Below are positions 53,201-57,608 of a stretch of 64,000 nucleotides of DNA, in pieces. Every line of letters starts with the position of its first letter. Position 1 is the first letter of the stretch. The notes beneath the pieces were generated by a model. The model searched no databases and was not told where the DNA came from. It saw only the letters and a list, made by a program, of their open reading frames with translations. A program made the translations under genes and the position numbers. The stretch is from Georgenia satyanarayanai (GTDB lineage: Bacteria > Actinomycetota > Actinomycetes > Actinomycetales > Actinomycetaceae). The stretch lies in the NCBI RefSeq assembly GCF_023715365.1, contig NZ_JAMBNZ010000002.1:186001-250000 (forward strand), read 5' to 3'.

Positions 53201-54205
53201 TCAGCGGTCGACCTGGTCGGCCTCGCGGGCGGTCTTCTTGTTCTTGGCGATGCTCGCGAGCACCGTCACCGTGAGGACGCCGAGGATCCACAGGAGCGAG
53301 ACGGCGATGCCCGGCTCGGGCAGGCCGTGCCACTCCTCGCCGCCGTTGACGAAGCCCAGCTCGTTGGTGTGCAGGGCGTGGATGACGAGCTTGATCCCGA
53401 TGAAGCCGAGGATCGCCGCCAGGCCGTAGTGGAGGTAGACGAGCTTCTCGAGGAGCCCGTCGATGAGGAAGTACAGCTGGCGCAGGCCGAGGAGCGAGAA
53501 GGCGTTCGCCGCGAAGACGAGGTAGGGCTCCTGGGTGAGGCCGAAGATGGCGGGGATGGAGTCGACCGCGAAGAGGATGTCGGCGCTGCCGATCGCGAGG
53601 ATCGCGAGGAGCATCGGGGTGATCATCCGCTTGCCGTCGACCTTGGTGACGAGCTTGCCTCCGACATAGTCCTCGGTGACCGGGACGAAGCGGCGCACGA
53701 GGCGGACGAAGCCGTTCTCCTGGTACTCCTCGTCCTCGGACACCGTCTCCACGCCCTGCCGCGCCTGGGAGATCGCCGTCCACACGAGGAAGGCGCCGAA
53801 GAGGTAGAAGACCCAGGAAAAGTTGTCGATCGCCGCGGAGCCGAGCGCGATGAACACACCGCGCAGCACGATCGCGATGACGATGCCGGCGAGCAGGACC
53901 TCCTGCTGATAGTTCCGGGGGACCCGGAACGCCGCGATAATGATGACGAAGACGAAGAGGTTGTCGACCGACAGGCTCTTCTCGGTGATGTAGCCGGCGA
54001 AGTACTCCCCGCCGTACGTCGAGCCCCAGATCATCCAGACGATCACGCCGAAGACGAGCGCCATCGCGACGTAGGCGACCGACCACCAGGCCGCCTCGCG
54101 CAGCGTCGGTGCGTGGGGAGTCTTGACGTGGCCGACGATGTCGACGGTGATCATCGTGACGATGACCGCGAAGAGGGCGATCCAGGCGATGGCGTGGACG
54201 TCCAC
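53201..54205 (-). CDS. TerC-family membrane protein (Mn2+ exporter type)
   Basis: This 334-residue TerC protein has about nine membrane segments. Conserved acidic residues lie in SLSVDNLFVFVIIIAAF and in IGSADILFAVDSIPAIFGLTQEP, the metal-binding signature of the family. Members export manganese or help metallate secreted enzymes. The GTG at 54203-54205 follows GGAGG with four bases between. That site is sequestered by the preceding riboswitch-like leader, the clearest regulatory signal in the window. Confidence 0.93.
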   Translation of the reverse strand: MDVHAIAWIALFAVIVTMITVDIVGHVKTPHAPTLREAAWWSVAYVAMALVFGVIVWMIWGSTYGGEYFAGYITEKSLSVDNLFVFVIIIAAFRVPRNYQQEVLLAGIVIAIVLRGVFIALGSAAIDNFSWVFYLFGAFLVWTAISQARQGVETVSEDEEYQENGFVRLVRRFVPVTEDYVGGKLVTKVDGKRMITPMLLAILAIGSADILFAVDSIPAIFGLTQEPYLVFAANAFSLLGLRQLYFLIDGLLEKLVYLHYGLAAILGFIGIKLVIHALHTNELGFVNGGEEWHGLPEPGIAVSLLWILGVLTVTVLASIAKNKKTAREADQVDR

Positions 54206-54351
54206 AGTGCCTCCGGTACGTAGGTGTCGAGGTACCGGAGGTCTCTTCCGCGCACGGACCGCCGGTGGGTCCGACGTTGTGCGCCGGTGGCACCGAGCGG
54301 GCATGGACCCGCTGTGATGACGACACCACCGTTGGGGAATACTCCCCTCCG
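54206..54351 (-). promoter_or_regulatory. yybP-ykoY (Mn2+) riboswitch with SD-sequestering platform
   Basis: The minus-strand leader starts with CGGAGG (54346-54351), which pairs with CCTCCG (54236-54241) as P1. Next to the strands lie the family's conserved loops: GGGGAGTA directly within the 5' strand and AGAGACC with the 3' strand. Internal helices GGTGG/CCACC, AGCGGG/CCCGCT and GCGCAC/GTGCGC are visible. After P1 the sequence CCTCCGGTAC (54232-54241) is perfectly complementary to GTACCGGAGG (54210-54219), which contains the terC Shine-Dalgarno. P1 formation and SD sequestration are thus mutually exclusive, a translational ON switch by Mn2+. The class is inferred from motif and downstream gene. 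Confidence 0.85.
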
Positions 54352-54358
54352 CCGCACG

Positions 54359-54364
54359 ACCCTA
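54359..54364 (-). promoter_or_regulatory. terC riboswitch promoter -10
   Basis: TAGGGT lies on the minus strand and ends eight bases before the 5' P1 strand, so the transcript would begin almost exactly at the aptamer. No recognisable -35 is present. Confidence 0.5.
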
Positions 54365-54408: not shown

Positions 54409-56502
54409 TCACTGAGCCGCCTGCATCTGGCGCAGCTCCTTCTTGAGGTCGCCGATCTCGTCCCGCAGCCGGGCCGCGAGCTCGAACTGGAGCTCCTCGG
54501 CCGCGCCGCGCATCTGCTGGTCGAGCTGATGGATGAGGTCGGCGAGGTCGCTTGCGGCGGCGGTGCCCAGGCGGTCGCGCAGGGCGGAGCCGGTCACCTG
54601 CCTCTCCTTGGTGCTGGGGCCCTTGCCCGCCTTGCGGTAACCGCCCTCGAGGAGCTCGGCGGTGTCGATCGACTCCCGCGCGAGCATGTCGGTGACGTCG
54701 GCGATCCGCTTGCGGAGCGGGGTCGGGTCGATCCCGTGCTCCTCGTTGTAGGCGACCTGCTTCTCGCGGCGCCGGGTGGTCTCCTCGATGGCCTCGGCCA
54801 TCGCGGCGGTGATCGAGTCCGCGTACATGTGGACCTCGCCGGAGACGTTGCGGGCCGCGCGGCCGATCGTCTGGATGAGGGAGGTCGCGGAGCGGAGGAA
54901 GCCCTGCTTGTCGGCGTCGAGGATCGCGACCAAGGAGACCTCGGGCAGGTCCAAGCCCTCGCGCAGGAGGTTGATGCCGACAAGGACGTCGACGACGCCC
55001 AGGCGCAGCTCGCGCAGCAGCTCCACGCGGCGCAGGGTGTCCACCTCGGAGTGGAGGTACTGCACCTTGACGCCCCGCTCGAGGAGGTAGTCGGTGAGGT
55101 CCTCGGCCATCTTCTTCGTCAGCGTCGTCACGAGGACGCGCTCGTCGCGCTCCGTGCGCGCGCGGATCTCCCCGAGGAGGTCGTCGATCTGCCCCTGGGT
55201 GGGCTTGACGACGACCTGCGGGTCGACGAGGCCGGTGGGCCGGATGATCTGCTCGACGACGCCGTCGGACTGGGACAGCTCGTAGCTGCCCGGCGTCGCG
55301 GACAGGTAGACGGTCTGGCCGATCCGCTCGAGGAACTCCTCCCACCGCAGCGGCCGGTTGTCCATGGCGCTGGGCAGCCTGAAGCCGTGCTCGACGAGCG
55401 TGCGCTTGCGGGACATGTCGCCCTCGTACATGGCCCCGATCTGCGGGACCGTCACGTGCGACTCGTCGATGACGAGGAGGAAGTCCTCCGGGAAGTAGTC
55501 GAGGAGCGTGTGCGGCGCGGTGCCCGGGCCACGGCCGTCGATGTGCCGGGAGTAGTTCTCGATTCCCGAGCACGTCCCGATCTGGCGCATCATCTCGATG
55601 TCGTAGGTGGTGCGCATGCGCAGCCGCTGCGCCTCGAGGAGCTTGTTCTGGGACTCGAGCTCCTCCAGCCGCTCGGCGAGCTCCTGCTCGATGGTCGCGA
55701 TGGCGCGCTCCATGCGCTCCGGGCCCGCGACGTAGTGGCTGGCCGGGAACAGGTGGATCGACTCCTCGCGCCGCACGACCTCCCCGGTGAGCGGGTGCAG
55801 GGTGTAGAGCGCGTCGATCTCGTCACCGAACATCTCGATGCGGATCGCGAGCTCCTCGTACACCGGGATGATCTCGATCGTGTCCCCCCGGACCCGGAAG
55901 GTGCCGCGCGTGAAGGCGAGGTCGTTGCGGGTGTACTGCATCTGGACGAAGCGGCGCAGGAGGTCGTCGCGCTCCATGGTGTCGCCGACCTTGAGCTGGA
56001 CCATCCGGTCGACGTACTCCTGGGGCGTACCCAGGCCGTAGATGCACGAGACGGAGGCGACGACGACGACGTCACGGCGGGTGAGGAGGTTGTTGGTCGC
56101 CGAGTGGCGCAGGCGCTCGACCTCGTCGTTGATCGAGGAGTCCTTCTCGATGAAGGTGTCCGTGCTCGGGACGTACGCCTCGGGCTGGTAGTAGTCGTAG
56201 TAGGAGACGAAGTACTCGACGGCGTTGTTGGGCAGCAGCTCGCGGAACTCGGTGGCCAGCTGCGCTGCGAGTGTCTTGTTCGGCGCCATGACGAGGGTGG
56301 GGCGCTGGACCTGCTCGACGAGCCACGCAGTCGTCGCGGACTTGCCGGTGCCGGTGGCACCGAGGAGGACGATGTCCTTCTCCCCCGCCTTCAGACGTTC
56401 GGTGAGCTCGGCGATGGCGGTGGGCTGGTCGCCGGAGGGTGTGTACTCCGAGACGACCTCGATCGGCGCGACGGATCGCTGGAGGTCGGTGACGGGACGC
56501 AT
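54409..56502 (-). CDS. uvrB: Excinuclease ABC subunit B
   Basis: UvrB (697 residues) is the damage-verifying helicase of nucleotide-excision repair. Walker [17 protein letters not shown] lies near residue 48. The beta-hairpin [25 protein letters not shown] follows, then DEAD-type LVIDESHV and QTIGRAARN (motif VI). The C-terminal UVR domain is [29 protein letters not shown] lies exactly six bases before the ATG with no Shine-Dalgarno, so the mRNA may be leaderless. Confidence 0.98.
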
Positions 56503-56508
56503 GGCATT

Positions 56509-56514
56509 ACGGTA
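56509..56514 (-). promoter_or_regulatory. Candidate -10 for leaderless uvrB
   Basis: TACCGT on the minus strand is separated from the uvrB ATG by six bases, the same geometry as TAGGGT before the histidine kinase. No SOS box is evident within the 62-base gap to the next gene. Confidence 0.4.
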
Positions 56515-56564
56515 CGTCGGGCCACCGACATCGGCGGGGCGACTTCGCGAGGGGCGGACGCCGC

Positions 56565-57608
56565 TCAGCGGGAGCGCAGCACGCGTCGCCAGGCGGAGAG
56601 TGCGAGCCCGCCGGCGAGCAGCAGCCAGAGCAGCGCGGACAGGTGCGGTGAGCCCCACCGCCAGCCCTCCTCGAGGACGTCGCTCACGAGCAGCGCCGCC
56701 GGGAACGCCGACAGCACCGTGTAGAACCAGGCCCGCCTGCGCTCGACGACCGGCTCGTCGGCCGGGAACCGCCCGGCGTACTCGGCGGTCGGGCCGAACT
56801 CCTCAGCCAGCGGGGTCCCTGCCTCGGCGGCGTGGGACCGAGTCTCCGCCAGGACTTGGGCGACCCGGCGGTCGGTCATGTCACCGCGCTGTCGCAGCGC
56901 TGCCGCGAGCCCGGCGAGCCAGGCGTCGTCGTCCGTGTCCGCCGCCACCGGAGCGACCGCGCGCTCCGGCCACAGGCTGCCCACGAGGGCAGCGAGGGCG
57001 GCGTACGCCGCGGCGGACAGGACCAGCCACAGGTTGCTCACCTCGATGACGACCGCCTCACTGGTGCCGAGGAAGAAGGCGGCGAGGGCCGCGGCGAGCG
57101 CGAGGACGGCAGCGGTGGCGGCGAGCAGCGCCGCGCGCTGCGACCGGGCGCGCAGCACGCGCTCGTGGACGCCGCGCACCACCTGTCCCGTCGTCGCGAG
57201 CAGGAGCGGTGCCAGAAGGAGGGGCCACGTGTAGGACTCGCGCCACTCCCGCTGAAGAAGCCTGGCGACGAGGAGGAACACGGTGACGACCGCTGCACCG
57301 ACGAGGGACGCGATGACGAGCTCGCGCACCGGGGTCTGCCGTGGTGGCTCGGTGAAGGTCTCCCCCTCCGCCCGCCAGTCCTCACGCTGGGTGCGAACCC
57401 ACGCCACGGGGTCGCCGTAGAGCTCCACGGGGGACTCACCGGACTCGGCGACCTGCCGGTGCGCATCGCCGAGCGCGCGCCGGGCGAGCTCGAGGCGCAC
57501 GTCCTCCAGGACGAAGCGGGCGGCGGCGACACGCGCCCACTCGGCGTCGGCGGCGACACCGCGGGCGGCGCCGAAGCCATCGGCCAGGTCGAGCAGGGTG
57601 TCAGCCAT
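56565..57608 (-). CDS. Membrane protein paired with PadR regulator
   Basis: This 347-residue protein has an N-terminal cytosolic part ([16 protein letters not shown], then [16 protein letters not shown]). About six membrane segments lie between residues 110 and 240, with two more at the C-terminus. The middle loop, PVVERRRAW, is basic. It resembles the DUF1700-like membrane partners often encoded after PadR genes, though I do not assign a family. It starts at ATG 57606-57608, eight bases inside the PadR gene, so they are coupled and presumably co-regulated. Confidence 0.85.

Follow-up and report, generated by a model that had tools for sequence, protein, structure and literature searches.

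The terC locus and its leader

The window, by which we mean the whole 64,000-nucleotide stretch of Georgenia satyanarayanai DNA that was analysed, carries terC on its minus strand (53201–54205; PF03741, E 1.7e-50), the gene and the orientation that an earlier note on this DNA had claimed for the target of a riboswitch. The gene encodes a protein of 334 amino acids from a GTG start at 54205, which is 92–95% identical to Georgenia satyanarayanai and Oceanitalea stevensii proteins. The uvrB gene (54409–56658, minus strand) lies upstream of the terC leader. The leader itself (54206–54364), which like all features described below is read on the minus strand, has the anatomy of a yybP-ykoY (Mn2+) aptamer, with P1.1, L1, P1.2, P3 bearing L3, and P4. 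The aptamer proper spans 54233–54353, where covariance model R1, described below, scores 90 bits (E 9.7e-19).

We found the −10-like TAGGGT that had been reported before the aptamer, at 54359–54364. No full sigma-70 consensus was found at the terC leader, and a TANNNT hexamer stands 5–11 nt ahead of the element in 61 of the 89 leaders of our comparative set, versus 1.0 expected. Transcription probably starts just upstream of P1.1.

In a direct reading of the minus strand from 54420 to 54150, the P1 arms in the earlier note, CGGAGG (54351–54346) and CCTCCG (54241–54236), proved exact, and its two loop motifs, GGGGAGTA (54347–54340) and AGAGACC (54246–54240), are in place. The 5′ strand of P1.1 (54346–54351; sequence and covariation) has the same letters as the Shine–Dalgarno (SD) sequence, and the two therefore compete for the 3′ strand of P1.1. 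The 5′ side of L1 is the conserved GGGGAGUA (54340–54347), unchanged in 24 leaders, and GGGAGTA on this side is present in all 89 elements. The conserved GAGACC (54240–54245; found in 74 of the 89 elements, with GAGACT in another 9) makes up the 3′ side of L1 and the start of the P1.1 3′ strand. P1.2, which the earlier note had not described, pairs UUCC (54336–54339) with GGAA (54246–54249), both strands being identified by covariation. The P3 arm (P3.1, L3 and P3.2; 54285–54331) and the P4 arm (54250–54284) are taken from the predicted fold, which has no P2 helix and joins P1, P3 and P4 in a three-way junction; a streptococcal yybP-ykoY member with a three-way junction has been reported (PMC9495176).

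The L3 motif CGUCAUCAC (54322–54314) is likewise additional to the earlier description. In the predicted fold, L3 is a one-sided 7-nt bulge in P3, UCAUCAC (54314–54320), and by sequence A54318 corresponds to the Mn2+-contacting adenosine of the studied aptamers (A41 in L. lactis, A48 in X. oryzae). Solved structures show this adenosine, invariant in L3, making the Mn2+-specific contact through its N7; its sequence context is UCA41AUUC in the L. lactis RNA and ACA48UACU in that of X. oryzae (PMC6754395).

Conservation and covariation

Of 59 related genomes, 57 proved to have a TerC gene. We read 30 TerC leaders of the same order, and in 24 of them GGGGAGTA and then a GAGACC-type block stand, in this order, upstream of terC. 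These 24 leaders make up alignment A1, which was not fitted to the tested structure and in which GGGGAGTA, CGTCA (including the UCA of L3) and AGAC are invariant. In P1.1 (6 pairs) and P1.2 (4 pairs), 95.8% of the cells of A1 are paired, versus 84.9% in shuffled alignments, and 27 cells are doubly compensated versus 6.9, in a control that ignores relatedness, for which dereplication at 80% identity is a partial correction. Changes on both sides occur in 6 of the 10 pairs, and pairing falls to 41–65% once the partner strand is displaced by one to three columns. RNAalifold, run unguided, returned the same P1.1 and P1.2 helices. Among relatives P1.2 varies from UUCC/GGAA to CUCC/GGAG, AUCC/GGAU, UCCC/GGGA and GC pairs.

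The larger alignment A2 (89 elements) gave 96.3% paired cells versus 82.7%, 143 doubly changed cells versus 46, both-side changes in 7 of 10 pairs and slid controls of 41–62%, statistics to be read with the caution that A2 was fitted to the covariance model and its structure.

Detection by covariance models

We built covariance model R1 from A1, and so from terC leaders of one actinobacterial order. In a search of 7.5 kb with filters off, this model found the verified E. coli alx leader (33.9 bits, E 1.7e-7) directly before alx, and the alignment matched GGGGAGUA, UCGUCAUUACG (a UCA-type L3) and GAGACC. The E. coli alx leader thus shares with the terC leader these three motifs, in the same order and before a gene of the TerC family, whereas its helix sequences and leader length differ and nothing outside the motifs is conserved. 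On E. coli mntP the match was weak (13 bits, E 0.026), in the right register. Taken with the covariation of P1.1 and P1.2 and with the L1 and L3 motifs, the recovery of alx by a model of this group bears out the earlier assignment to the yybP-ykoY family, and we regard the terC leader, on its sequence, as a genuine member.

The Rfam results point the other way at first sight. A scan of the whole window reported tRNA only, and in a permissive scan of the leader RF00080 reached 11.1 bits (E 0.38) at 54250–54359, versus a gathering score of 45, the match stopping ahead of GAGACC. The earlier note had held that the lack of a covariance-model match would speak against the family. This argument is invalid here, as RF00080 also misses verified E. 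coli alx, which went unreported at E 0.1. The verified mntP locus scored 41.6 bits, under the cut-off. Across 198 genomes of the class, RF00080 (Rfam 15) attains its cut-off in none and E 0.01 in 7. Since alx is missed, mntP falls below the cut-off and no genome passes, an absent RF00080 match is little evidence, and the sub-threshold score is a weakness of the model and no argument against membership. In the printed consensus of RF00080 the GGGGAGUA strand is unpaired, so the model seems to be without P1. An older Rfam release gave the C. glutamicum terC leader 49.13 bits (PMC3890552).

R1, by comparison, finds the element in 129 of the 198 genomes at E 0.01, its E-values being rough. Since Rfam 15 passes 0 of these genomes and R1 finds 129, regulation by Mn2+ in Actinobacteria is probably under-annotated today, a practical point that exceeds the single case.

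A strand shared by the aptamer and the ribosome site

The 3′ strand of P1.1 with its extension, CCUCCGGUAC (DNA CCTCCGGTAC; 54241–54232), is complementary to either of two partners, CGGAGG of P1.1 (54346–54351) or the SD strand GUACCGGAGG (DNA GTACCGGAGG; 54210–54219). The latter, conserved in relatives, carries the SD for GTG 54205 and would form a 10-bp anti-SD hairpin; the complementarity is perfect, as the earlier note had said.

The switch that the earlier note drew from this shared strand is supported by comparison of leaders with their own and with swapped partners. In 53 dereplicated terC leaders, the duplex between the P1.1 3′ strand and the leader's own downstream sequence has a mean energy of −15.6 kcal/mol, versus −13.1 kcal/mol when partners are swapped (permutation p 5e-5). 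Watson–Crick-only runs of at least 7 occur in 30 of 54 leaders versus 12.7 in permutations (p 2e-4), and for leaders with a P1.1 strand other than CCTCCG the figures are 5 of 23 versus 1.0 (p 0.0014, Watson–Crick only). Examples of the pairing are CCTTCGGTAC with GTACCGAAGG (L013) and CCTCAAGC with GCTTGAGG (L092). Ungapped runs with G–U allowed discriminate weakly (cognate 42 of 54, non-cognate 48%), as most leaders have the P1 and SD consensus in common. About a quarter of the terC leaders in the set have no convincing duplex between the P1.1 3′ strand and the SD, which indicates that other platforms exist and that the SD platform is not universal. In one leader, L026, the SD region at the terC start reads GGGGAGTATAAATG, a sequence that is SD and L1 motif at once, probably by chance.

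We also compared predicted energies of the two folds. The aptamer alone with P1.1 and P1.2 comes to −58.8 kcal/mol, within 0.7 of its minimum of −59.5 kcal/mol. For the full leader, the anti-SD fold is at −82.7 kcal/mol versus −70.4 kcal/mol with P1.1 and P1.2 enforced, and the anti-SD hairpin has pairing probabilities of 0.986–1.0 in the predicted ensemble, in a nearest-neighbour model that excludes tertiary contacts and Mn2+. On these predicted values the OFF fold is ahead by about 12 kcal/mol, too much for switching at equilibrium, which would require the decision to be co-transcriptional. A decision taken during transcription is the simplest reading of the modelled energies, and it accords with single-molecule studies of the L. 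lactis riboswitch, whose P1.1 responds to Mn2+, pausing and NusA (PMC11087558).

Genes downstream of the element

A three-frame TerC search placed TerC downstream of 64 of the 89 elements; as R1 was trained on terC leaders, this tally is biased towards terC. Most of the remaining elements precede GDT1/UPF0016 genes (PF01169) and two precede Na/Ca exchangers (PF01699), the non-TerC families being confirmed by Pfam for four representatives. TerC and GDT1 are both tied to Mn2+. The gene company of the element (TerC, GDT1 and CaCA) thus supports Mn2+ as the ligand. A published screen had already shown that yybP-ykoY elements control UPF0016 genes in most of the bacteria examined (PMC7380456).

Neither a GDT1 nor an MntP gene was found in the present genome, and an R1 search of it returned one strong site (90 bits), the next best reaching 18 bits. 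TerC, therefore, is the sole riboswitch-linked Mn gene found here.

Proposed mechanism and alternatives

Anatomy, covariation, shared-strand pairing, gene association and a conserved −10 can all be read from the aligned leaders. Together they make it highly likely, in our judgement, that the terC leader is a yybP-ykoY riboswitch which senses Mn2+ and activates terC translation, and the gene is very probably switched on by uncovering of the ribosome site at high manganese. Transcription would begin a few bases ahead of P1.1. While RNA polymerase moves on from the aptamer, A54318 in L3 and the L1 backbone would contact Mn2+, which would dock L1 on L3 and stabilise the switch helix P1.1 (CGGAGG/CCUCCG). 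With P1.1 occupying CCUCCGGUAC, the SD strand GUACCGGAGG would stay free and TerC would be translated. At low Mn2+, P1.1 would be weak, and the SD strand would capture CCUCCGGUAC in the 10-bp hairpin and hide the ribosome site. TerC would then export Mn2+ or hand it to exported proteins.

For Mn2+ as the ligand, for the ON direction and for the role of TerC we rely on analogy with studied members of the family. In these, Mn2+ stabilises P1.1 against strand invasion, which requires the L3 adenosine (PMC6754395; PMC11087558). In E. coli, the mntP riboswitch acts as a translational ON switch, and Mn2+ activates an alx reporter (PMC9603457). The crystallised L. lactis yybP and X. oryzae aptamers have the P1.1 switch helix, L1/L3 docking, the L3 adenosine and GAGACC (PMC6754395; PMC11087558), for all of which the terC leader has apparent counterparts. 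Unlike the terC leader, with its lack of a predicted P2, both solved aptamers have a four-way junction, and the L. lactis switch is transcriptional, acting through a terminator. E. coli mntP resembles the terC leader in its family and in the activation of translation initiation by Mn2+ (PMC9603457), but controls MntP, has an ACA-type L3 and scores only 13 bits with R1. The nearest phylogenetic parallel is C. glutamicum cg2157 (terC), whose actinobacterial yybP-ykoY leader had been annotated with Rfam and was detected by RNA-seq as a 5′ UTR in 2013; it belongs to another actinobacterial lineage, and the passage describing it mentions no SD switch (PMC3890552). The family, its association with terC in Actinobacteria and translational control were thus already established. 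The value of the present case lies in its easily read shared-strand switch and in the evidence that the current Rfam model overlooks actinobacterial members. Seemingly no tested translational Mn2+ riboswitch from an actinobacterium is described in the literature that we found, and the terC leader appears, from its sequence, to be a clear and readable example of one.

We found no intrinsic terminator in the terC leader, the hairpin not being followed by a U-run, and a riboswitch acting through such a terminator was rejected. The same Mn2+ aptamer could, however, have a mainly transcriptional output if the hidden SD uncoupled translation and Rho terminated within or after the leader, so that Mn2+ would change the mRNA level. 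Termination by Rho does occur at the mntP riboswitch of E. coli, where activation by Mn2+ partly relieves it (PMC11647493), and the actinobacterial leader has a high GC content and is not translated. We nevertheless consider this unlikely, given the missing intrinsic terminator, and such termination would add to the SD switch rather than replace it.

It is less probable still that translational activation of terC responds not to Mn2+ alone, but to another cation (Ca2+ or Cd2+) or to Mn2+ combined with an alkaline pH. Every terC element of the set retains the L3 adenosine responsible for Mn2+ specificity, and most genes associated with the element encode TerC or GDT1, both Mn2+-tied. In favour of this reading, two elements of the set precede Na/Ca-exchanger genes, and maximal activation of the alx and mntP riboswitches needs both alkaline pH and Mn2+ (PMC9603457).

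A ligand-free hairpin that merely sequesters the SD, as an mRNA structure or thermosensor, would account for the dominance of the 10-bp hairpin in the predicted ensemble, but leaves L1, L3, the covariation of P1.2 and the recovery of E. coli alx unexplained, and is very improbable. Finally, translation of TerC from an in-frame ATG at 54304, the conserved letters then encoding an N-terminal extension, can be dismissed: no stop codon interrupts the frame from 54304 onwards here, but among members of the genus the number of nucleotides between the start of the element and the GTG differs by non-multiples of three (aptamers of 118, 121 and 124 nt, 25–27 nt to the start), relatives L011, L013 and L026 have in-frame stops, changes in the leader preserve RNA pairs, and homologous TerC proteins align from the GTG start.

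Versions of L3 and of the expression platform

Within the set, collected with the terC-trained model, the version of L3 tracks the downstream gene: the UCA type is found in 64 of 64 terC elements and the ACA type in 21 of the 25 others (mostly GDT1/UPF0016, with some Na/Ca exchangers). The two E. coli members show the same split as the 89 elements (L003–L109), with a UCA-type L3 at alx (a TerC gene; L137) and an ACA-type L3 at mntP (L138). The two versions may represent two old leader-plus-gene lineages, or affinity tuning. More tentatively, and with the balance against it, one might propose that actinobacterial Mn2+ riboswitches are distinct subtypes, short, apparently P2-less and undetected by the reference model, in which the L3 version (UCA with TerC, ACA with GDT1 or exchangers) follows the gene and possibly tunes Mn2+ affinity to exporter or chaperone roles.

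GDT1-type leaders such as L097, L098 and L105 have a platform unlike that of terC. In these, the P1.1 3′ strand CCUUCGACC pairs with an adjoining strand of the GGUCGAAG/GGUCGGAG type, and the SD is covered by a second hairpin, for example CUUCCGGUC...GAUCGGAAGG, which makes a two-hairpin arrangement.

In two genomes of a single genus, again from the same order, a UCA-type element (L083, 151–250; L085, 1706–1803, minus strand) stands before a gene whose product is Gly/Ala-rich and 288–291 amino acids long. The L085 protein matched no Pfam family; the gene is possibly a new Mn2+-regulated one.
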